A DNA stretch of 64,000 nt from Hymenobacter sp. H14-R3 (GTDB lineage Bacteria; Bacteroidota; Bacteroidia; Cytophagales; Hymenobacteraceae): NCBI RefSeq assembly GCF_030063445.1, contig NZ_JASITD010000023.1, positions 1 through 64,000 on the forward strand, given 5' to 3'. Of this stretch, positions 13,476-25,514 are shown one piece after another. A program made the translations under genes and the position numbers. Numbering within the stretch: position 1 is the first letter of the stretch; every line of letters starts with the position of its first letter. The notes beneath the pieces were generated by a model. That model did no database searches and had not been told where the DNA came from. It saw only the letters and a program-made list of their open reading frames with translations.

Positions 13476-14384
13476 TTGAAACATCTTATTCCACGCGGCA
13501 AGCTCATCGCCATCGGGGGCAACGAGGATAAAGGCACCTACCCTACCGTTCGAAGCAAGCGCCAGTATTACCTGAATTTTTTTGAGTTGGGTATCCTCAA
13601 GCGTGTCGTGTCCGAGTCGGGCAAGGCCGACCCGCGCATTGAGGTCGTTACCACTGCCTCCATGATTCCGCAGGAGGTGGGCCCGATTTACATCGGCTCC
13701 TTCGCCATGCTCAACTGCCACAACATTGGCATCATGGATATCCGCACGGCCGCCGATGCCCGGCAGCCCGAGTACCTGGCCCGCCTGCTGGCCGCCGATG
13801 TGGTGATGTTTTCGGGCGGCAACCAATCGCGCCTGCGCGAGATGTTTGGCGAAACCGATTTTCTCGACACCCTCACCCGCCGCTACCATACCGAGCCCGA
13901 CTTCGTGATTGCCGGCACCAGCGCCGGGGCCATGGCCATGTCGCAGCACATGATACGCGGTGGCTCGGTACCCGACGCCCTGCTCAAGGGGGCCGTGAAA
14001 ATGGGCACTGGCTTCGGCCTGCTGCCCACCGCCCTCATCGACTCGCACTTTGTGAAGCGCGGGCGCTTTGGCCGCCTCATCGAGGCGGTGGCGCTCTACC
14101 CCAAGCTCATCGGCATCGGGCTGGGTGAAGACACGGGCGTACTCATCACCGATGGCCACCTGGTCGAAACCATTGGCTCGAACCTGGTCATCATTCTGGA
14201 TGGCCACGACATTGCGCACAATAACACGGCGGCCGCCAAGAAGGGCACGACCCTCTCCATCGAAAATTTCAAGATGCACGTGCTGGCCAAGGGTAACGTG
14301 TACTGCATTACGGAGCGCAAGTTTTACGTGAGCAAGGAAGCCGCCACGCCCACTGCGCTGCCCAACGCCACACCGGTCGCCTGA
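13476..14384 (+). CDS. cphB: Cyanophycinase (peptidase S51)
   Basis: 302 residues starting at TTG (13476); no ATG fits, and the family N-terminus PRGKLIAIGGNEDKG begins at once. The nucleophile elbow GTSAGAMAMS puts the catalytic serine at about residue 149, and VMFSGGNQSRLRE is also typical. The enzyme cuts the Asp-Arg polymer cyanophycin to beta-Asp-Arg dipeptides. The isoaspartyl peptidase at 15504-16439 would split those dipeptides. No cyanophycin synthetase is in the window. Some S51 relatives act on other beta-linked peptides, so the natural substrate is not certain. Confidence 0.85.
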   Translation: MKHLIPRGKLIAIGGNEDKGTYPTVRSKRQYYLNFFELGILKRVVSESGKADPRIEVVTTASMIPQEVGPIYIGSFAMLNCHNIGIMDIRTAADARQPEYLARLLAADVVMFSGGNQSRLREMFGETDFLDTLTRRYHTEPDFVIAGTSAGAMAMSQHMIRGGSVPDALLKGAVKMGTGFGLLPTALIDSHFVKRGRFGRLIEAVALYPKLIGIGLGEDTGVLITDGHLVETIGSNLVIILDGHDIAHNNTAAAKKGTTLSIENFKMHVLAKGNVYCITERKFYVSKEAATPTALPNATPVA

Positions 14385-15503: not shown

Positions 15504-16439
15504 CTAATAAATAGCCACCTGCTCCTCCCCCGCCGCGTTGCGGCTGGCGCGGTACATACCTTCCGAGTTGAAGGGCAGGGCCAGGTTACCGGCCGCGTCC
15601 ACGGCAATGAGGCCGCCCTCCCCGCCCACCGGGGCCAGCTTATCGTGCACCACCACGCGGCAGGCTTCGGCCAAAGACAGTCCTTTGTACTCCATGAGGC
15701 AGGCCACATCATAGCCCACCACGGCCCTAATAAAAAACTCGCCGTGTCCGGTGCAACTGATGGCGCAGCGCGCATCGGCCCAGGTGCCGGCCCCAATGAG
15801 CGGCGTATCACCGATGCGCGAGTAGCGCTTGTTGGTCATGCCGCCGGTGCTGGTGGCGGCGGCCAGGTGGCCATGCTGGTCGCGGGCCACGGCCCCAACG
15901 GTACCTTTTTTCCAGTTGGGATCGGCGGCCGGGGCCGGGCTGGCCGCGTGGTCGAGCTGCATGCGGCCGGCCGCAATAGCCTCTTGCAGCTGGTCGAAGC
16001 GCTGCTGCGTGAAAAAATACTCGGCCGGCTGCATGGGTAGGCCGTGTTCGCGGGCCAGGTCGTCGGCCCCAGGGTAGGCCAGCAGCACGTGCTCGGTAGC
16101 CTCCATCACGAGGCGGGCGGCCCGAATGGGGTTTTGCACCTGGCGCACGCCCGCCACAGCCCCGGCCCGGCGGGTGGCCCCGTCCATGAGGGCGGCGTCC
16201 ATCTCGTGGTGGCCGTCGTGGGTAAACACGGCCCCGCGCCCGGCATTGAAGAGCGGGCAGTCTTCGAGGCTGCGCACGGTGGCTTCTACAACGTCGAGGG
16301 CGGGCGCGCCCTGGGCCAGCAGGGCCGTGCCCGTATCCAGCGCAGCCCGCAACGCGGCCCGGTAATTGGCTTCTAGCGTGGGCGTAAGCGAGGTGCGGGC
16401 AATGGTGCCAGCCCCCCCATGTAGAGCAAGAGCAAACAT
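15504..16439 (-). CDS. Isoaspartyl peptidase / L-asparaginase (Ntn hydrolase)
   Basis: 311 residues from the ATG at 16439 (MFALALHGGAGTI). The autocleavage site KKGTVGAVA makes Thr of GTVG (residue 180) the N-terminal nucleophile of the beta chain. STGGMTNKRYSRIGDTPLIG and CTGHGEFFIR are further family hallmarks. No signal peptide, so it is cytoplasmic. It hydrolyses beta-aspartyl dipeptides and asparagine. Together with the nearby cyanophycinase it could complete breakdown of beta-Asp-Arg to free amino acids; the general role is recycling isoaspartyl peptides. Divergent from the DUF3127 gene, with 270 bases between. Confidence 0.9.
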   Translation of the reverse strand: MFALALHGGAGTIARTSLTPTLEANYRAALRAALDTGTALLAQGAPALDVVEATVRSLEDCPLFNAGRGAVFTHDGHHEMDAALMDGATRRAGAVAGVRQVQNPIRAARLVMEATEHVLLAYPGADDLAREHGLPMQPAEYFFTQQRFDQLQEAIAAGRMQLDHAASPAPAADPNWKKGTVGAVARDQHGHLAAATSTGGMTNKRYSRIGDTPLIGAGTWADARCAISCTGHGEFFIRAVVGYDVACLMEYKGLSLAEACRVVVHDKLAPVGGEGGLIAVDAAGNLALPFNSEGMYRASRNAAGEEQVAIY

Positions 16440-16664
16440 ATTCTGATTGAACAATTAACTAAGTTTCTTGCGCAAGAACGGCACTTTCTGCAGCTTCTGC
16501 TGGTTGAAACAGTACGTATAGACAATAATTTACTGCCTGTCAAGTAGTTAGTTTATCAATTCTACACTATTTTTTTTAGCCAAACCAGTTGTAAGTGCCT
16601 GAAAAAAGTGGGGTAGCCACTAAGCTATTCTGCCAAAAGCATGGCCTTCTTCGGTTTTTTTTCG

Positions 16665-18517: not shown

Positions 18518-19072
18518 TTAAGCAGTAAGCAGGGCCGGCCAGTAGCGCTCACGCAAAATGCGCAGGTGGTGCTGCTCATGGCCCGCCGTGATGTAGAGCA
18601 GCGACCGAACCGTAACGGGCCCGCCGTTGGCGCGGCCAGCGCGGTCTAGCTGCCCGCCGTTCAGCCCCGCGAAGAAGGCCAGCGTGGCGGCGCGCACGGC
18701 GTGATATTCCGTTAGCAAGTCGCTCATTATCCTGTCATTAGCTTCGCTATTGGCCACGTAGTCATCCTGCTCGAAGCCGGGTAGCTCCTGCGCATCGGCG
18801 CGGGCAAAGCGCAGGGCGCGGTAGGTGAAGATGCGCTCAGAATCGGTGATGTGGAGCAGCATTTCCTTGGGCGTCCACTTGCCGGGGGCGTAGCGCATAA
18901 GCGCCTGCGCCTCGGTGAGGCCCGAAAACTCGCGGTGCAGTTCGGCGGCTTGCTGGCGTAGCTGGGCCAGCGGTTCGGCGTCGGCGGGCACCAGGTCGAT
19001 ATACGCTTGGGTGTAAGGTAAATACGTGCCGGGCGCGGGGCGCTCCTGGCTGGCAATAGGGGTAACGGACAT
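18518..19072 (-). CDS. DinB-like protein (possible independent start)
   Basis: 184 residues from the internal ATG at 19072 (MSVTPIASQERPAPGTYLPY). It is a complete DinB_2-type protein on its own, with the three histidines of the metal site (LHITDSE, HEQHH). TACCTTTG lies five bases before the ATG, so a nearly leaderless transcript could start here. I list it as an alternative product of the same frame. DinB-like enzymes include bacillithiol- or mycothiol-dependent transferases; the actual reaction is not known. Confidence 0.6.
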   Translation of the reverse strand: MSVTPIASQERPAPGTYLPYTQAYIDLVPADAEPLAQLRQQAAELHREFSGLTEAQALMRYAPGKWTPKEMLLHITDSERIFTYRALRFARADAQELPGFEQDDYVANSEANDRIMSDLLTEYHAVRAATLAFFAGLNGGQLDRAGRANGGPVTVRSLLYITAGHEQHHLRILRERYWPALLTA

Positions 19073-20041
19073 GGGAGCAAAGGTAGCCGGCCGCCGCAGA
19101 TACTGAAATTTCAGCTGCACCGCGCCGTGCGGGCGGCGCATGAGCGGCCGGCCGCCCAGCCGCCCGCGCGCCGGGCGCGGCTCCCGGGCCGCCACCTCGG
19201 GCGCGGCCAGCTCGCTGGTACCGAAGGCCCAACGTAAAAAATCGGGCATGATGGTGCCCCAGGTATCGGGGTGGTGGTGGCCGCCGGGCACCTCTATGTA
19301 GCGCGCGGCGGTGGGGGGCAAGCCCTGCGCCGCTAGCACCGCCAGCATATCCAGGGTATCGTCGATGGCGTCGATGATGCCGTTGTGGTTGCGGTCGGTG
19401 GTTTCGTCGTCGGTGCCGGTTTGCAGCCAGAACTGCTGGCCGGGCCGGGCCGGGCGGGCGGCTACCAGACTGTGCATCAGGCGGTCGGCGTCGGTATAAC
19501 CGTCGTTCAGCCCCCGGCCCCGCCACCAGAAGGAACCGCTGAATATGCCGCTCCGCAAGAACGCCTCGGGGTGGTGCCAGGCCAGGTCAAAAGCCATGAG
19601 CCCCCCCAGCGACATGCCCGCCACGGCCGCCTCGGCGGGGCTGGCGCTGGCGTGGTAGTGGGCCTGCACATAGGGTAGCAATTCCTTGAGCATGAAGTCG
19701 GTGTAGCGGCCGGCGCGGCTGCCCCGGCCCAGGTAGTCGGGCCGGGCGGCCACGCCGTATTCCTGCAAGCGGTCGGCCGCATGAATGGCTACCAGCACAA
19801 ACGGCCGCACCTCGCCCCGCCGAAACAAACGGTTGAGCGTGGCCGGCAGGTGCAGGCGCGCCAGGTCTTGCCCATCCTGGAGGTAGAGCACCGGGTAGGG
19901 CTGCGCGGCCCGCGCCGAAAAGCCGGGCGGCAGTACCACGTCCAGGCGCACCACGCGGCCCAGCGCCACCGAAAACAAAGACTCGTCGCGCCGCACTACC
20001 ACGGTAGCCCCGCGCGGCGACTGAAATCTGAAAACTGCCAT
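18518..20041 (-). CDS. Esterase fused in frame to a DinB-like domain
   Basis: About 507 residues in one frame from the ATG at 20041. Residues 1-290 are an esterase of the PF00756 type: VAGMSLGGLMAFDLAW (nucleophile Ser), a calcium-loop-like DRNHNGIIDAIDDT, and PGGHHHPDTWG. Residues 324-507 are a DinB-type four-helix bundle with metal ligands in LLHITDSE and GHEQHHLRIL. The two parts are probably separate genes, because a TACCTTTG box and an ATG (19072) sit exactly at the junction. If so, the esterase has lost its stop codon or the genes have become fused. The esterase substrate is unknown; DinB-type enzymes often use thiol cofactors. Confidence 0.7.
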   Translation of the reverse strand: MAVFRFQSPRGATVVVRRDESLFSVALGRVVRLDVVLPPGFSARAAQPYPVLYLQDGQDLARLHLPATLNRLFRRGEVRPFVLVAIHAADRLQEYGVAARPDYLGRGSRAGRYTDFMLKELLPYVQAHYHASASPAEAAVAGMSLGGLMAFDLAWHHPEAFLRSGIFSGSFWWRGRGLNDGYTDADRLMHSLVAARPARPGQQFWLQTGTDDETTDRNHNGIIDAIDDTLDMLAVLAAQGLPPTAARYIEVPGGHHHPDTWGTIMPDFLRWAFGTSELAAPEVAAREPRPARGRLGGRPLMRRPHGAVQLKFQYLRRPATFAPMSVTPIASQERPAPGTYLPYTQAYIDLVPADAEPLAQLRQQAAELHREFSGLTEAQALMRYAPGKWTPKEMLLHITDSERIFTYRALRFARADAQELPGFEQDDYVANSEANDRIMSDLLTEYHAVRAATLAFFAGLNGGQLDRAGRANGGPVTVRSLLYITAGHEQHHLRILRERYWPALLTA

Positions 20042-20157
20042 TGACCCGCAAATAAACACGACTTGGGCCCATTTTAAAGAAAAGTTGGTCGTTCGGTTTT
20101 CCTGCTTAGTTTGCGGCCGGTTCCGGTGCGCGCGTCATCCCCGCCGGCCCCTTCCTC

Positions 20158-20862
20158 TTGCACGAAGAACATCGCCGCTTTCACTCCCAGCACCTGGGCA
20201 CTGACATGGAAATGCTGGTCGTGGGCGACTATGGCTACCCCATCCTCATTTTCCCTACTTCCAACGGCCGCTACTACGAGGCCCGCGATTTTCACCTCAC
20301 CGATTCGGTGCGCTGGTTTGTTGAAAACCGGCTTATCAAGCTTTTCTGCATCGACAGCGGCGATAAGTGGAGCTGGTACGCCAAGCACCTGCACCCCGGC
20401 ACCCGCGTGCACAACCACGGCCTCTACGACTGCATGATTAGCGAGGAACTGGTGCCCAGCATTCAGCACGAGTGCCAGGTCGATAAAATTGGCGTAGCCG
20501 GCTGCTCACTCGGTGGTTACCAAGCGCTTAACTATGCCTTCCGGCACCCCAACCAGGTAGCGCACATGTTCTCGATGGGCGCTGCCTTCGACATTCGCAT
20601 GTTTCTGGATGGGCACTACGACGAGCAGGCGTACTTTCATAACCCGCTCGACTACATGCCTAATGCTCAAGATGATAACTTCTACCAGATGAATATCGTG
20701 CTGGGCACCGCCGAAGATGACTTCTGCAAGGGCTCCAACTACCTGATGTCGGAGATTCTCGCGCGCAAGGGCATTCCGCACCGCCTCGATGTGCGGCCGG
20801 GTACCCACGACTGGCCCGTGTGGCGCGACATGTTTCCCACCTACGTCTCCTCTATCCTTTAA
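20158..20862 (+). CDS. Esterase-family alpha/beta-hydrolase, first gene of the amidoligase set
   Basis: 234 residues from a TTG (20158). Later ATGs would delete the conserved start HEEHRRFHSQHLGTDMEML. The nucleophile elbow is VAGCSLGGYQALN, the catalytic aspartate is probably in LGTAEDDF and the histidine in GTHDWPVWRD. It has no signal peptide, so it is cytoplasmic. It is the first of five same-strand genes that include two ATP-grasp proteins, a GCS2-type ligase and a glutamine amidotransferase. It could hydrolyse or transfer an acyl group on the product or an intermediate. The product itself is not known. Confidence 0.8.
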   Translation: MHEEHRRFHSQHLGTDMEMLVVGDYGYPILIFPTSNGRYYEARDFHLTDSVRWFVENRLIKLFCIDSGDKWSWYAKHLHPGTRVHNHGLYDCMISEELVPSIQHECQVDKIGVAGCSLGGYQALNYAFRHPNQVAHMFSMGAAFDIRMFLDGHYDEQAYFHNPLDYMPNAQDDNFYQMNIVLGTAEDDFCKGSNYLMSEILARKGIPHRLDVRPGTHDWPVWRDMFPTYVSSIL

Positions 20863-20946
20863 GTAGTTACTTCCGTAAACGCTTCAGCGCTCGCGCCTAC
20901 TCCTATCCTTTCCAACTCCTTAGAACGCTCCGTTCTTCCCCTACCC

Positions 20947-22107
20947 ATGAAAAAAATCGGCATCTTGTTTGGCCAGGAAAACACCTTTCCCCAGGCCTTT
21001 GTGGACCGCGTTAACCAAAAAGCCGTTGAGGGCATCACGGCCGAATTCGTTAACATTCAGGAAGTAGAGCAGGCCGTGGCCACCGACTACGCCGTCATTA
21101 TTGACCGTATTTCGCAGGACGTGCCCTTCTACCGCGCCTACCTCAAAAACGCCGCCCTCACCGGGACGGCCGTGATTAACAACCCGTTCTGGTGGAGCGC
21201 CGACGAGAAGTTCTTCAACAACGCCCTCGCCGTGCAGCTTGGCGTGCCGGTACCCAAAACCCTGCTGCTCCCCAGCAAGGCCCGCCCCGACGACACCAGC
21301 GAGAACTCGTTTCGCAACCTCGGCATGTTCGACTGGGAAAAGGCCTTCGAGAAAATCGGCTTCCCGGCCTTCATGAAGCCCCACTCGGGCGGCGGCTGGA
21401 AAAGCGTGTACAAGGTTGACAACCCCTACGAAGCCTACCGCGCCTACGACGAAACCGGCCAGCTGGTAATGCTATACCAAGAGGCCGTTGACTTCACCGA
21501 CTATTTCCGGTGCTACTGCCTCGGCGGTAAAGACGTGCTCATTATGCCCTACGAGCCGCGCAACGCCCCCCACCAGCGCTACCAAACCGAGATGAAAACC
21601 ACGGGCGAGGCCGGCGAAAAGCTGCTCGCCACCGTCAAAGACTACGTGCTGCGCCTGTGCCAGGGCCTGGGCTATGACTTTAATACGGTGGAGTTTGCGG
21701 TGCGCGACGGCATCCCAATCGCCATTGACTTTGGCAACCCTGCTCCCGATGCCGACATTGACTCGGTAGGCCCCGAAAACTTTGAGTGGGTAGTGGAGCA
21801 CGCTGCCAACCTGGCCATTGCCCGCGCCCAGGCCCAAAAGCCCGGCGCCGACAACCTCACCTGGGGCACTTTCGTGCAGAAGTCGGCCCACGCCGTGGCC
21901 GTTGGCAAAGGCACTATGGAAGTAGGTGCTGCTGTGCACGAAACCAACGACCTGGGTGCCAACCCACCCAAGCCCGCCAAAAAGGCGGCTGCGCCCAAGA
22001 AATCGGATGCTCCCAAGCCCGAGCCCATCACGGGTGCCGAGCTAAAAGCTAAGCCGGCCCCCGCCGCCAAGGCACCTCCCAAGCCTAAGAAACAGTCAGT
22101 CAAATAG
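20947..22107 (+). CDS. ATP-grasp ligase with a basic Ala/Pro tail
   Basis: 386 residues. Residues 1-300 are an ATP-grasp fold: FPAFMKPHSGGGWKSVYKV with K144 and a glycine-rich loop for ATP, YQEAVDFTDYFRCYC, and IPIAIDFGNPAPDADID near the metal site. It resembles RimK/D-Ala-D-Ala-ligase-like enzymes, which activate a carboxylate as acyl phosphate and join it to an amine. Residues 325-386 form a Lys/Ala/Pro-rich tail (KKAAAPKKSDAPKPEP) that may bind nucleic acid or a partner. It lies 84 bases after the esterase gene and ends before a clear hairpin at 22127. Confidence 0.85.
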   Translation: MKKIGILFGQENTFPQAFVDRVNQKAVEGITAEFVNIQEVEQAVATDYAVIIDRISQDVPFYRAYLKNAALTGTAVINNPFWWSADEKFFNNALAVQLGVPVPKTLLLPSKARPDDTSENSFRNLGMFDWEKAFEKIGFPAFMKPHSGGGWKSVYKVDNPYEAYRAYDETGQLVMLYQEAVDFTDYFRCYCLGGKDVLIMPYEPRNAPHQRYQTEMKTTGEAGEKLLATVKDYVLRLCQGLGYDFNTVEFAVRDGIPIAIDFGNPAPDADIDSVGPENFEWVVEHAANLAIARAQAQKPGADNLTWGTFVQKSAHAVAVGKGTMEVGAAVHETNDLGANPPKPAKKAAAPKKSDAPKPEPITGAELKAKPAPAAKAPPKPKKQSVK

Positions 22108-22126
22108 TCAGGTAGGCTTTCTTACT

Positions 22127-22167
22127 GTAAAAGGGCTGCTACCACCGCTTGGTGGCAGCCCTTTTAC
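22127..22167 (+). terminator. Hairpin inside the amidoligase set
   Basis: GTAAAAGGGCTGC with GCAGCCCTTTTAC plus inner ACCACC/GGTGGT pairs. It lies between the ATP-grasp and GCS2-type genes, so the set may be two or more transcripts or be attenuated here. Confidence 0.7.
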
Positions 22168-22228
22168 AGCTTCGCCTCGTGAGCAGGCAACCCAAGTTTC
22201 CATCCACTTCCTAGTTAGCTCACTACGT

Positions 22229-23332
22229 ATGCCCCGCCCCGTTTTCACCCTCGGCATCGAGGAAGAGTTTCAAACCATCGACCCCGTTACGCGGGACCTG
22301 CGCTCGCACATGTCGAAAATTGTGGAGGACGGCAAAATCACGCTGCACGAGCAGGTGAAGGCCGAAATGCACGAGTCGGTAGTGGAAGTGGGCACCAATA
22401 TTTGCAAGAATATTCAGGAAGCGCGTACCGAGGTGGTGCACCTGCGCCGCCAGGTAATCGAGTTGGCCGACCGCGTAGGCTTGAAAATCGCCGCCGCCGG
22501 CACGCACCCCTTCTCACGGTGGCAGGACCAGCCCATCACGCCCGATGCCCGCTACGATAAAATAGTGGAAGAATTGCAGGAAGCCGCCCGGTCTAACCTG
22601 GTTTTTGGGATGCACGTGCACATCGGCATCGAGAACCGCGACTTGGGCGTGTATATGATGAACGCGCTGCGGTATTTTCTGCCGCACCTGTTTGCACTCA
22701 GCACCAACTCGCCCTTCTGGGAAGGCCGCGAAACCGGTTACAAATCCTTCAGAACCAAGGTATTCGAACGCTTTCCGCGCACCGGTATTCCTGACTATTT
22801 CACCAGCGCCTCAGAGTACGACGAGTTTATCGCGCTGCTGATAAAAACCGGCTGCATCGACAACGGCAAGAAAATCTGGTGGGATTTACGTCTGCATCCT
22901 TTCTTCGACACCATCGAATACCGCATCTGCGATATGATGATGCGCTCAGACGAAACCATTGCCGTGGCAGCCGTAATGCAGGCCCTGGTAGCGAAAATTT
23001 ATAAGCTCAAGTGCCAGAACTTAAATTTTCGACTTTATCGCAGCTCACTCATCAAGGAAAATAAGTGGCGGGCGGCCCGATATGGTATTGATGGTCAATT
23101 GATTGACTTTGGCACGGAGGAGGAAAAGCCCGCCCGTCAATTAATTCTGGAATTACTGGATTTTGTGGATGATGTACTCGACGACTTAGGCAGCCGCCAC
23201 GAAGTAGAGTATATTCTTAAAATGATGGAAATGGGCACCGGAGCCGACCGCCAACTAGCTGTTTTTCAGCAGACTGGTGACTTGACTAAAGTGGTTGATT
23301 ATATTCTGACCGAGACGGCCTACGGACTTTAG
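22229..23332 (+). CDS. GCS2-type carboxylate-amine ligase (YbdK-like)
   Basis: 367 residues. LGIEEEFQTIDPVTRDL at the N-terminus holds the acidic metal-binding patch of the glutamine-synthetase-like fold, and FGMHVHIGIENRD and DLRLHPFFDTIEYRICD are further hallmarks. YbdK has weak gamma-glutamyl-cysteine ligase activity, so the enzyme should form an amide between a carboxylate (often glutamate) and an amine with ATP. The fold differs from that of its ATP-grasp neighbours, so the set has at least two separate ligation steps. Full length for the family and no signal peptide. Confidence 0.88.
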   Translation: MPRPVFTLGIEEEFQTIDPVTRDLRSHMSKIVEDGKITLHEQVKAEMHESVVEVGTNICKNIQEARTEVVHLRRQVIELADRVGLKIAAAGTHPFSRWQDQPITPDARYDKIVEELQEAARSNLVFGMHVHIGIENRDLGVYMMNALRYFLPHLFALSTNSPFWEGRETGYKSFRTKVFERFPRTGIPDYFTSASEYDEFIALLIKTGCIDNGKKIWWDLRLHPFFDTIEYRICDMMMRSDETIAVAAVMQALVAKIYKLKCQNLNFRLYRSSLIKENKWRAARYGIDGQLIDFGTEEEKPARQLILELLDFVDDVLDDLGSRHEVEYILKMMEMGTGADRQLAVFQQTGDLTKVVDYILTETAYGL

Positions 23333-23358
23333 TTAAGCTGCTGTGAACAAATGGGCCG

Positions 23359-23366
23359 TATTTTTG
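23359..23366 (+). promoter_or_regulatory. Putative promoter before the amidotransferase gene
   Basis: TATTTTTG matches TAnnTTTG, 54 bases before the ATG at 23421. This suggests the second half of the set can be transcribed separately. Confidence 0.4.
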
Positions 23367-23420
23367 CAGCTTAACTACTTCACGGCTAGCTATTAATTAG
23401 CTAAAATAAGTTTTATTTTT

Positions 23421-24245
23421 ATGAGTAAGTTTAGAATTGCTATTCTGGATATGTACAACAATTTTCCTAACGAGGGAATGCGTTGTATTCGACAACTATT
23501 GCACCGTACGGAAGCAGCGCAGCAAGTGGAATTTATAGTTGACACTTTTAATGTGCGGGCGGCCAACGAAATACCCGATTTCACTTATGACATCTATATT
23601 TCGAGCGGCGGCCCGGGCAGCCCCTTGCAGTCAGATGAGCCGTGGGAACCGTTGTATTTCGATTTTATCGACAATTTATTTGCATTTAACAGCACGGCCG
23701 AGCATAAAAAGCACCTACTACTTATCTGCCACTCGTTCCAGCTGATAAGCCGTCATTTCGGGTTGGGAGAAATAAGCAAGCGTAAATCGACTTCGTTTGG
23801 CGTGCTGCCCGTGCACTTGACCGAAGCCGGCCACACCGACCCGGTTTTTGCGCAACTACCCGAGCCCTTCTACGCCGTTGATTCGCGCGATTATCAACTT
23901 ACTGATTTGCACCCCCAACGCCTAGCCGAATTAGGCGTTGAAATACTGTGCCTGGAAAAAGAGCGTCCCCACATTCCCCTGGCCCGCGCGGTAATGGCGT
24001 TGCGCTTTTCACCCGAAATAGTGGGTACGCAGTTTCACCCCGAGGCTGATGGCGAAGGTATGCTACGCTACATGCTCACCGATGAGCGCAAGAAGCAAGT
24101 AATTGCGTCGTATGGAGAGGATAAATACCACGAAATGGTGCATCTACTTGCCGACCCCGAAACAATTGAGGTAACGGAAGCAATCATTATTCCCACGTTT
24201 TTGCAGCGTGCGTTGAATGCCTTGCGCGAGCCGGCTCTAATCTAA
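23421..24245 (+). CDS. Class I glutamine amidotransferase
   Basis: 274 residues. The triad is visible: C103 in LLLICHSFQL, then H206 and E208 in VGTQFHPEADGEGM. SSGGPGSP supplies the oxyanion loop. The elbow ICHSFQ differs slightly from the usual G-x-C-x-G. The family either gives ammonia from glutamine or cuts gamma-glutamyl bonds, as PuuD-like proteins do. Beside ligases it may supply ammonia to form a terminal amide or remove a gamma-glutamyl group. Its base composition is more AT-rich than the genes before 22.5 kb. Confidence 0.85.
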   Translation: MSKFRIAILDMYNNFPNEGMRCIRQLLHRTEAAQQVEFIVDTFNVRAANEIPDFTYDIYISSGGPGSPLQSDEPWEPLYFDFIDNLFAFNSTAEHKKHLLLICHSFQLISRHFGLGEISKRKSTSFGVLPVHLTEAGHTDPVFAQLPEPFYAVDSRDYQLTDLHPQRLAELGVEILCLEKERPHIPLARAVMALRFSPEIVGTQFHPEADGEGMLRYMLTDERKKQVIASYGEDKYHEMVHLLADPETIEVTEAIIIPTFLQRALNALREPALI

Positions 24246-24274
24246 ATTATTGGTTCAGTACGCAGTAACTATTG

Positions 24275-24305
24275 GCGCGAATCACTTGATTCGCGCTACT
24301 TTTTT
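24275..24305 (+). terminator. Hairpin between the amidotransferase and second ATP-grasp-like gene
   Basis: GCGCGAATCA (24275-24284) pairs with TGATTCGCGC (24288-24297) and is followed by CTACTTTTTT. It lies 19 bases before the next ATG (24324), so it may also act as a regulator of that gene. Confidence 0.7.
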
Positions 24306-24323
24306 GTCTTAAATTATCTCCCG

Positions 24324-25514
24324 ATGATTCCTGCTCCCCGCCAATTATTCAACGAGGCTTTCACCCCTGAGCGCTATCAGGGAATGCTAGCCGATATGGA
24401 CCATCAACTACCCGGGCAGCTTGACTTTAGGATAGCGGAAACCCCAGTCTTCGTTCCGGCTGCGCTCCGCGACAAGCTCATTCGGGCGGGTCAGGATATT
24501 ATTGACGTGCTGCAACAGCCTACCTTCAAAGAGCTTACCGAAGGCGCTATTCCACCCAGCCAGCGCGTACCGAACGAAGACGCCCACGCTGAATTTTTGA
24601 CGTTTGATTTTGCCGTGTGCCGAAATTCTGATGGGGAGCTGGAGCCGCAATTAATTGAGATGCAGGGCTTTCCATCGCTGTACGCGTTTCAAGCTTACCT
24701 ACCCGGCGTATTTGCTGCGCATTACCCCATTGCTGAGTCTGTTTCGCCCTTCATTGAAGTAGCCGATGCCGCCGCTTACCAGGCTAATTTTAAGAGACTG
24801 CTATTGGCTGATGAAAACCCGGAAAATGTAATTCTGCTGGAGTTATTTCCTGAGCGTCAAAAAACCCGGATTGATTTTGCCTTATCCAAAAAATACTGGG
24901 GGATTGAGGTAGTTTCGCTACCCGACATCAAGAAGCATGGCCGTCAATTATTTTACGAAAAAGACGGTCAAGAAATACTAATTAAGCGCATCTACAATCG
25001 CATCATTTTTGACGAGTTGGAGCGCCACCCTGACTTGCACCCCGCCTTCAACCTGACCGACGATGTTGATGTGACGTGGGTGGGGCACCCCAACTGGTTT
25101 TTTCGCATCAGCAAATACACCCTGCCGCTCATTACCAGCGCTTTCGCACCCCCAAGCTATTACCTAAATAAGCTAACCGCGTATCCCAGCGACTTGGAGA
25201 ACTACGTACTAAAGCCGCTTTTTTCGTTCGCGGGGGCCGGCGTCCGGCTGCACATCACGGCCGCTGATTTGGATGCGCTGCCCGACAAACAGAATTATTT
25301 ATTGCAACGCAAGGTTACTTACGAGCCCGTAGTTCAGTCACCCGATGGCTTAGTGAAGTGTGAGATTCGCCTGCTCTACACCTGGCCCCACGCAGATGCG
25401 CAGCCGAAATTGGTAGCCGGGCTGGCCCGCCTGAGCCGTGGCGAGATGATTGGTGTTGATTTCAACAAGAATAAAGATTGGGTGGGTGGCACAACTCCCC
25501 TGTTTGAGCGGTAA
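24324..25514 (+). CDS. Second ATP-grasp-like protein, probably circularly permuted
   Basis: 396 residues, no signal peptide. Features that suggest an ATP-grasp fold are EPQLIEMQGFPSLYAFQ (acidic metal site, unusually early in the chain), EILIKRIYNRIIFDEL, and YVLKPLFSFAGAGVRL (nucleotide lysine and glycine loop). Metal-site residues before the nucleotide loop point to a circularly permuted arrangement as in glutathionylspermidine synthetase-like proteins. It is the last gene of the set. The fold call is inferred from motifs only; a structure prediction would settle it. Confidence 0.65.
   Translation: MIPAPRQLFNEAFTPERYQGMLADMDHQLPGQLDFRIAETPVFVPAALRDKLIRAGQDIIDVLQQPTFKELTEGAIPPSQRVPNEDAHAEFLTFDFAVCRNSDGELEPQLIEMQGFPSLYAFQAYLPGVFAAHYPIAESVSPFIEVADAAAYQANFKRLLLADENPENVILLELFPERQKTRIDFALSKKYWGIEVVSLPDIKKHGRQLFYEKDGQEILIKRIYNRIIFDELERHPDLHPAFNLTDDVDVTWVGHPNWFFRISKYTLPLITSAFAPPSYYLNKLTAYPSDLENYVLKPLFSFAGAGVRLHITAADLDALPDKQNYLLQRKVTYEPVVQSPDGLVKCEIRLLYTWPHADAQPKLVAGLARLSRGEMIGVDFNKNKDWVGGTTPLFER

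Follow-up and report, generated by a model that had tools for sequence, protein, structure and literature searches.

Does a run of five neighboring ligase and hydrolase genes in Hymenobacter sp. H14-R3 form a single pathway, and what would such a pathway make? The genes lie on contig NZ_JASITD010000023.1 (assembly GCF_030063445.1), of which we analyzed positions 1 to 64,000 of the forward strand (the window).

Results

Composition of the gene set

The window contains five consecutive plus-strand open reading frames, E, G, C, T and A, at the positions given by the first-pass annotation. We list them with the divergent gene beside E and the signals in the gaps.

18518..20059, minus strand: divergent PF00756 esterase with a C-terminal DinB_2 domain (fusion; Pfam, position kept)
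20158..20862, plus strand: E, PF00756 esterase / alpha-beta hydrolase (Pfam; TTG start)
20947..22107, plus strand: G, RimK/Ddl-like ATP-grasp ligase whose C-terminal tail is variable and rich in Lys, Ala and Pro (profile, alignment, model)
22125..22169, no strand assigned: terminator- or attenuator-like hairpin in the G-C gap, 20-bp stem (gap folding)
22229..23332, plus strand: C, GCS2/YbdK-type carboxylate-amine ligase, PRK13515 (Pfam/NCBIfam)
23359..23366, plus strand: TATTTTTG, possible Bacteroidota-type -7 box upstream of T (consensus match)
23421..24245, plus strand: T, class I glutamine-amidotransferase-type enzyme (PF00117, conserved triad)
24273..24298, plus strand: intrinsic-terminator-like hairpin with a T run in the T-A gap (gap folding)
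24324..25514, plus strand: A, ligase of the glutathionylspermidine/glutathione-synthetase fold, a permuted ATP-grasp (predicted fold)

Pfam and NCBIfam profiles uphold the families first assigned to E, G, C and T, the RimK match of G lying below cut-off. C is a clear member of the YbdK/GCS2 carboxylate-amine ligases, scoring 539.6 bits against PRK13515 (cut-off 371) and 228 bits against PF04107, with 1r8g (YbdK) and 1tt4 as relatives in the PDB. The active-site signature, given as GhExE for GCS2-type ligases in the accessible part of PMC2588565, reads GIEEE or GVEEE in 33 of 34 sequences, the remaining one being gapped. Outside the phylum, 5 of 14 control genomes contained a match to the C family, none over the cut-off. 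The literature covered, part of it accessible only as excerpts, yielded no native substrate for the PRK13515 subfamily.

G is weakly RimK-like, and its 32.5 bits against TIGR00768 (cut-off 143.4) leave it outside that family. Its model, of low confidence (mean pLDDT 57), matches D-Ala-D-Ala ligase (Ddl) with a Foldseek E of 7e-9. Residues K144, E179, R188, E249, D261 and N264 are invariant in 33/33 sequences, and by analogy we take all of these except R188 to bind ATP and Mg. On conserved residues and modelled fold, G is a member of the ATP-grasp superfamily. The C-terminal tail is rich in Lys, Ala and Pro in many lineages and short or missing in many others.

T scores 40.2 bits against PF00117 (cut-off 22.8). 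The triad C103/H206/E208, described earlier as intact, is found together with a GGPG motif in all 28 sequences, the T of the window included. Judged by the profile match and this Cys-His-Glu triad, T is an enzyme of the class I glutamine-amidotransferase type.

E scores 47.1 bits against PF00756 (cut-off 22), and its TTG start aligns with the starts of its homologues. The expected nucleophile, Ser117, is kept in 18/21 sequences and gone in 3. The divergent esterase-DinB_2 fusion (Pfam, 98.2 and 75.1 bits) had been overlooked and belongs to the conserved unit: in Hymenobacter it lies beside E, as it does in the Maribacter locus L038, where the ORF (287 aa) encodes the esterase alone, and its family was found at 13/60 loci around A.

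A has the predicted fold of glutathionylspermidine synthetase

At E 0.01, A matched nothing among the Pfam and NCBIfam models. A structure prediction, proposed together with the label 'second ATP-grasp-like protein', bears that label out: the model (pLDDT 86.7) has the fold of glutathionylspermidine and eukaryotic glutathione synthetases. It is closest to E. coli YgiC, YjfC and Gss (VIA Z 25.7, 25.2 and 23.8, over the whole length), and its superposition on 7uk8 (Z 25.7, rmsd 3.5, 344 aligned) places A in this fold, at 11-14% sequence identity to the three E. coli proteins.

Six residues of A (D95, E112, Q114, K264, K297 and E347) are invariant in 60/60 sequences, and a K-P-x-F-S ATP-binding stretch is common to A and YgiC. 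The catalytic residues of Cp1B are R139/D141/E163/N165 (PMC12568646, accessible part); those of YgiC, R100/D102/E115/N117, are common to YjfC. A departs from this R-x-D...E-x-N pattern: Asp and Glu are present in 60/60 sequences, whereas Arg is found in 0/60 and Gln replaces Asn in 60/60. The correspondence with YgiC is drawn from motif and fold, as the hhalign alignments were short (61 columns against YgiC/YjfC, 42 against YgiC/YjfC/Gss) and covered only about residues 246-310. Since the Arg is gone and Gln stands for Asn, glutathionylspermidine-type substrates should not be assumed for A. YgiC and YjfC are termed peptidylpolyamine synthetases in the accessible part of PMC12568646. The predicted fold of A is that of YgiC, YjfC and the synthetase half of Gss, whereas the R of R-x-D is missing, and the genomic context of A is unlike E. 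coli tolC-ygiBC and yjfIJKLMC.

Separately, a glutathione-type synthetase may be present in the strain's own genome, where a single PF02955 (GSH-S_ATP) match exceeds the cut-off (C12:74210, ORF of 356 aa).

The genes co-occur across Bacteroidota

Among 395 genomes of the phylum, A is present in 114, strong G in 127, strong C in 117 and T in 86. A and strong G occur together in 110 genomes (A only in 4, G only in 17), A and strong C in 109 (A only in 5, C only in 8), and strong G and strong C in 113; strong G is found in 84/86 T genomes, and 64 genomes carry A, strong G, strong C and T. The line between strong and weak was drawn after the scores were seen and left out 7 G genomes (E 8e-59 to 3e-99) and 12 C genomes (E 1e-77 to 9e-108); with these counted in, the two A pairs stay at 110 and 109. 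The co-occurrence p-values ignore phylogeny.

We examined loci around A in 60 of the 114 genomes, chosen by us and mostly one per genus. The start of A touches or overlaps the upstream ORF at some of them, this ORF being T in 7, C in 5 and an amidohydrolase in 4 of the 60 (start codons being those of the longest ORF). At 20/60 loci, E, G, C and T were all missing from the 11-16 kb fetched around A. The same 20 genomes carry strong G elsewhere in 20/20 cases and strong C in 18/20. Co-occurrence thus persists where the genes are unlinked, which rules out a chance neighborhood. Together the results show that the five-gene set is real and non-random, and the homologues cluster and co-occur across the phylum, contrary to the refuting outcome named in the first-pass annotation.

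The distribution is patchy. A is carried by 26 family-level groups, yet relatives within a genus or family can lack the set; in one family all four genes are present in 6 genomes, none in 11 listed and part of them in 1. Such a pattern points to a probably useful accessory metabolite pathway rather than to housekeeping. T is missing from 45/114 A genomes, and C from all 4 genomes found with A in another family. In one genome C-T-A stands without any G in the genome, and the 12 kb covered there contained no E. A tblastn search of plasmids with G and A as queries gave no match.

In 16 genomes G and T are present and A is absent. All 16 encode another ligase of A's superfamily, X, adjoining G, and in 15 the order G-X-T lies on one contig, whereas X was found in 0/64 other genomes tested (the search took in 46 of the 114 A genomes; X loci were drawn from 8 of the 16). 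Strong C is missing from 9 of the 16, and with C and T so unevenly present the product may differ between lineages. X scores 37.3 bits against PF14403 (cut-off 32) and matches 3n6x with E 1e-9; its relatives are thus the CP_ATPgrasp_2/Mfla_0391 family, and it sits between G and T. The hhalign probability of A against X is 4.5%, and an hmmsearch with X recovered none of the A sequences, so that their kinship lies in superfamily membership and motifs, not in sequence. A or X is present in 130/395 genomes, about a third.

Signals between the genes

The two hairpins named earlier, at 22127 and 24275, are both present in the window. The G-C gap folds with -50.4 kcal/mol (z -5.84) and the T-A gap with -20.9 kcal/mol (z -4.4), and for either gap 0/200 shuffles were as stable. 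Perfect stems of at least 8 pairs were found in the T-A gap at 6/36 loci and in the G-C gap at 5/36, so hairpins are not generally conserved, and both counts are undercounts because the search missed the window's own G-C hairpin. Terminator-like sites in the whole region do not exceed chance (5 found, 7.7 expected).

The box upstream of T matches TAnnTTTG, which we take to be the Bacteroidota -7 consensus. Across the window this motif is about as frequent as expected, with 27 copies against 25.4. It occurs somewhere in the C-T gap at 21/36 loci including the window, a raw count over related loci, at 51 to more than 170 bases from T; the gap lacks it in several of the closest relatives (L002-L007, L034 and L041). 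Given two terminator-like hairpins with a promoter-like box between them, T and A may be transcribed apart from E and G in the window.

Discussion

Proposed pathway

We propose that the set encodes a cytoplasmic pathway, independent of non-ribosomal peptide synthetases, in which successive ATP-dependent ligations yield a small peptide-like amide, with G and A or X as its core; we give this reading a probability of about 0.55. The protein families, predicted folds and conserved catalytic residues support it, as do the clustering of the genes, their shared presence or absence in genomes and the A/X replacement. G and A, or X in some lineages, would carry out the core ligations. C would add a step in most lineages, in which, by the chemistry of its family, a side-chain carboxylate of the glutamate type is activated. 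T probably cleaves or amidates the product; most likely it would cleave or trim an amide, as Gss of E. coli does with its amidase half, a role that an M29 aminopeptidase or an Amidohydro_3 protein may take over in some lineages. E and the divergent esterase may act on ester or acyl intermediates. The order of steps is inferred, and so is the view that the product is a small molecule and not a modified protein. A small peptide- or amide-like product was one half of the original metabolite reading and fits best; its other half, modification of a protein end, has gained no positive evidence. The absence of a transporter noted before is true of the cluster proper, though one lineage carries A as a fusion with a sodium:solute symporter.

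Alternative readings

The role of T leaves room for another possibility, to which we give some weight without favoring it: T would pass glutamine-derived ammonia to A or X, and the product would end in a primary amide, by analogy with the osmolyte NAGGN. Class I amidotransferases are usually paired with a synthetase, and the triad of T is intact. Its position is also suggestive, directly upstream of A in 25/60 loci, with the 7 touching or overlapping cases among the contacts counted above, and T is present in 16/16 X genomes, in 15 of which it comes after X on one contig. The 45 A genomes without T are unexpected for such a role, however, and the nucleophile motif of T, C-H-S-F-Q, differs from the canonical C-x-G-x-Q. 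Moreover, an M29 aminopeptidase gene, whose product should not give ammonia, lies near T's place in 5 genomes, and an amidohydrolase (Amidohydro_3) gene lies directly upstream of A in 5 genomes; T is missing from all 5 in each case, while 3 genomes with the amidohydrolase farther off do carry T. The NAGGN system itself consists of a GNAT/ATP-grasp fusion (TIGR03103) and an asparagine-synthetase-type amidotransferase, and none of the window's E, G, C, T and A proteins matched TIGR03103.

The remaining readings concern the product itself. The ligase families match the logic of GshA-GshB-GspS step by step, which would make C a gamma-glutamylcysteine ligase, G GshB-like and A GspS-like in the synthesis of a glutathione- or glutathionylspermidine-like thiol. 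E. coli YbdK has gamma-glutamyl:cysteine ligase activity according to the title of a reference cited in the accessible part of PMC2588565, and the DinB domain of the Hymenobacter flanking esterase has a bacillithiol-transferase-like match below cut-off. We consider such a thiol unlikely: C is dispensable in some lineages and A lacks the GspS Arg. Bacillithiol synthase, BshC, was found in 79/80 genomes (39/40 with A, from 40 of the 114 A genomes, and 40/40 without), which shows that the main thiol is not replaced by the set; a role as substitute for bacillithiol is rejected. Slightly less probable still is the ligation of amino acids or peptides to the side chain or end of a protein, possibly the Lys-rich tail of G itself. 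The weak likeness of G to RimK and its Lys/Ala/Pro-rich tail in many lineages would suit this, and protein tagging has been proposed for the Anbu ATP-grasp operon (PMC6376114, accessible part). The shortness or absence of the tail in many other lineages speaks against it. Furthermore, no ORF under 160 aa in 160 sequences ended in the C-terminal motif that we took as LysW-type, and a carrier system of that kind is rejected. None of the window's four gaps wholly contains an ORF above 31 aa, and in Maribacter L038 the G-C, C-T and T-A gaps measure just 23, 35 and 0 bp; a typical graspetide cluster is thereby rejected as far as non-overlapping precursors above 31 aa within the gaps are concerned. 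A place in the metabolism of cyanophycin, an Asp-Arg polymer, is very improbable. In the window a cyanophycinase gene lies about 6 kb and a beta-aspartyl peptidase gene about 4 kb upstream of E, and cyanophycin synthetase (CphA) is encoded on another contig of the same genome. In 5/6 genomes of one genus (g12) the stretch downstream of A carries CphA at a distance of 0.1-1.7 kb, and in the sixth CphA is on another contig. CphA was found in 15/40 A-positive (again 40 of the 114 A genomes) against 2/40 A-negative genomes, which leaves 25/40 A-positive genomes without it, so it is not required and cyanophycin metabolism is rejected as the general role. Within the same class the figures are 15/31 (6 of them g12 genomes added deliberately) against 2/9, which is not decisive.

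Relation to known systems

Mixed clusters of ATP-grasp and glutamine-synthetase-fold ligases, assigned to unknown metabolites, are reportedly among the amidoligase neighborhoods of Iyer et al. 2009; by this description the present set is of the same kind. The accessible part of PMC2588565 describes neighborhoods in which a GCS2-like ligase, of a separate family similar in size to GCS2, stands in proteobacteria beside a 'glutamine amidotransferase-like thiol peptidase', with glutathione or related peptide metabolites predicted. The present set likewise has a GS-fold ligase beside an amidotransferase-type enzyme, but its C is a true GCS2 protein and it adds two further ligases and esterases. The accessible parts of PMC8939145, PMC12568646, PMC11237479, PMC2588565, PMC6376114, PMC4431377 and PMC2922099 do not describe the set. 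We found no report of the gene set or its product in the literature searched, which leaves most subscription journals outside and is no proof of novelty.

Implications

The strict replacement of A by X points to two ligases that should share one job. The set provides a concrete, testable list of enzymes, one of which, A, lies outside all Pfam and NCBIfam models. Tentatively, about a third of the sampled Bacteroidota genomes may make an undescribed low-molecular-weight amide through a relay resembling GshA-GshB-GspS, with interchangeable hydrolases and a swap between A and X.

Conservation of the gene set

The first-pass annotation had placed five same-strand genes at 20158-25514 and read them as an amidoligase set; all five plus-strand ORFs, here called E, G, C, T and A, were borne out. 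Together with their neighbors they are:

13476-14384, plus strand: cyanophycinase (TIGR02069, 213 bits against 126.6)
15504-16454, minus strand: beta-aspartyl peptidase/Asparaginase_2, near the E-A cluster
18518-20059, minus strand, divergent: esterase fused to a DinB_2 domain (profile match, conserved position)
20158-20862, plus strand: E, PF00756 esterase (family profile match)
20947-22107, plus strand: G, weak RimK likeness (32.5 bits, under the cut-off of 143.4)
22229-23332, plus strand: C, GCS2 ligase of YbdK/PRK13515 type (539.6 bits against a cut-off of 371)
23421-24245, plus strand: T, class I amidotransferase-type protein (family profile match)
24324-25514, plus strand: A, without a match among Pfam or NCBIfam models

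Neighborhood searches across Bacteroidota, a check that the annotation had proposed, show that A homologues group with E, G, C or T in most loci. Among 41 A loci, from a search reaching close relatives only, 35 carry all six genes in the order divergent esterase-E-G-C-T-A (33 Hymenobacter or its MAGs, 2 Maribacter), making the divergent esterase a member of the conserved unit in the compared loci. Four of the six incomplete loci end at contig ends (L013, L029, L037, L039), and two Spirosoma loci among the 41 keep C-T-A. We then refer to 60 loci sampled from 60 of the 114 A genomes, mostly one per genus. Of the set genes, C lies near A most often (33 loci), followed by G (32), T (27), E (20) and the 18518-type esterase (13); A stands without E, G, C or T nearby in 20. 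The start of A abuts or overlaps the preceding ORF in 16 of the 60 (T 7, C 5, amidohydrolase 4), suggesting translational coupling there.

Several features vary. The DinB_2 domain gives a weak bacillithiol-transferase-like match, and the Maribacter homologue of this esterase (L038) is an ORF only as long as the esterase part. G ends in a Histone-H1-like, Lys/Ala/Pro-rich tail on an ATP-grasp ligase (21870-22107), also seen in L038, L042 and L099, its length ranging between lineages from almost nothing to >100 residues. Elsewhere in the genome, an ORF of 356 aa with a GSH-S_ATP (PF02955) match above cut-off (contig C12, 74210-74686) is possibly a glutathione-synthetase-like or RimK-like protein.

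The genes also occur together across the phylum. In 395 sampled genomes of the phylum A is present in 114, G in 134 (127 strong by search score), C in 129 (117 strong) and T in 86. Strong G coincides with A in 110 genomes, with strong C in 113 and with T in 84; A coincides with strong C in 109, and all four genes are present together in 64. The 20 genomes with a solitary A locus carry strong G elsewhere in 20, strong C in 18 and T in only 4. Fisher p-values for gene pairs (2.5e-30 to 1.7e-80) ignore phylogeny, and the within-family pattern is better evidence of association: in one family (f7) six genomes have all four genes, 11 of those listed have none, and one (G154) is a true partial set. 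Its C-T-A locus (L166) lies on a contig running on beyond C, with neither G nor E within the 12 kb examined and no G anywhere in the genome at E 1e-40. The PRK13515 ligase is accessory, not housekeeping, since it is found in just 6 of 13 Hymenobacter genomes, this one included.

X appears to take the place of A

Strong G occurs without A in 17 genomes. In all 8 fetched of these, an ORF of about 450-480 aa, named X, lies between G and T; it was absent from all 60 sampled A loci. X matches CP_ATPgrasp_2 (37.3 bits, cut-off 32) and 3n6x, a putative glutathionylspermidine synthase (E 1e-9), and has both the R-x-D and E-x-N motifs. A search of 80 genomes, including these 17 and 46 A carriers, found X in 16 of the 17, the exception (G381) also being without T, and in 0 of the other 63, 46 of them with A (0/64 counting G381). 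X adjoins G in 16/16 genomes, and by coordinates T is next on the same contig in 15. No kinship between A and X is visible at the sequence level. Since X occurs in 16 of 17 A-less strong-G genomes and in none of 46 A carriers, the two seem to be alternative enzymes for the same step.

Predicted fold and residues of A

The structure of A, which the annotation had called a second ATP-grasp-like protein, was predicted with AlphaFold2 from an alignment of 11 sequences (mean pLDDT 86.7); the model adopts a glutathionylspermidine/glutathione-synthetase-type fold. All 20 Foldseek matches at E < 0.001 are glutathionylspermidine/trypanothione synthetases, eukaryotic-type glutathione synthetases and relatives. 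VIA-align 2 superposed the model on YgiC (Z 25.7, rmsd 3.5, 344 residues), YjfC (Z 25.2) and Gss (Z 23.8). PMC12568646 classes YgiC and YjfC as peptidylpolyamine synthetases and reports that a related enzyme, Cp1B, needs R139, D141, E163 and N165. Fold and motif suggest that residues 93, 95, 112 and 114 of A are the counterparts of R-x-D/E-x-N. D95, E112, Q114, K264, K297 and E347 are invariant across 60 A sequences; the Arg position holds Arg in 0/60 and the Asn place holds Gln in 60/60. A therefore should not be classed as a glutathionylspermidine synthetase, and it probably acts in the manner of the glutathionylspermidine/glutathione-synthetase superfamily.

Transcription of the cluster

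Several promoters or attenuation had been suggested from hairpins and a box. Folding confirmed stable hairpins in the G-C and T-A gaps, and TAnnTTTG is present in the C-T gap, modestly suggesting separate transcription units in this genome; conservation across loci is limited. A perfect-stem search, which undercounts, found the T-A hairpin in 6/36 loci and a G-C one in 5/36. TAnnTTTG stands in the C-T gap of 21/36 loci at varying distance and is missing from several of the closest relatives. Terminator-like sites in the region are not above chance. The Maribacter L038 gaps are 23 (G-C), 35 (C-T) and 0 bp (T-A).

Relation to known clusters

Mixed amidoligase clusters have been recognized before. 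The passages available from PMC2588565 describe, in 2008, a GCS2-like ligase next to a GAT-like thiol peptidase; that ligase belongs to a different family from C. The passages at hand on ATP-grasp ligases do not describe the E-G-C-T-A set, nor was it met in the literature searched, whose scope excludes the 2009 survey likeliest to include it. Within that literature, it is a variant apparently not described before.

CphA lies elsewhere in this genome (contig C6, 29707); in one genus (g12) it adjoins A in 5/6 genomes. One X locus (L144) has an Asparaginase_2-type protein beside the cluster, under the beta-aspartyl-peptidase cut-off. M17 leucyl aminopeptidase family members occur in three A loci.

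A proposed relay of ligations

We favor a relay of ATP-dependent ligations. G and A or X would perform the core ATP-dependent ligation steps, and C would add one present in most but not all lineages: C is missing in 4/4 A genomes of family f8, and strong C in 9/16 X genomes. T, missing in 45/114 A genomes, may cleave an amide, the reading preferred here and drawn from other amide hydrolases beside A where T is missing. An M29-family protein occurs in 5/60 A loci, directly upstream of A in four, and an Amidohydro_3-family member in 8/60, directly upstream in five (Pfam assignment tested on one M29 and two amidohydrolase members). T is absent from 5/5 M29 genomes and from 5/5 in which the amidohydrolase adjoins A; it is present in three whose amidohydrolase stands farther away. 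Alternatively, T may donate ammonia, the usual role of class I amidotransferases and one that would fit how closely T is coupled to A or X.

As for the product of the relay, protein modification, also entertained by the annotation, found no positive support. A thiol is possible; with BshC in 79 of 80 genomes tested, it would be additional to bacillithiol. Two further partners were found:

L079:4899-6107, plus strand: F15, an extra ATP-grasp enzyme like L-amino acid ligases (4wd3, E 3e-16), also in L080, L091, L099 and L144 (A loci with it number four, X loci one or more)
L118:8573-11173, plus strand: sodium:solute symporter with A fused in frame behind it; in L164 and L165 of this lineage the symporter part is divided between ORFs

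Together the variable partners (hydrolases, F15 and symporter fusion) suggest that a substrate or product is small and soluble.
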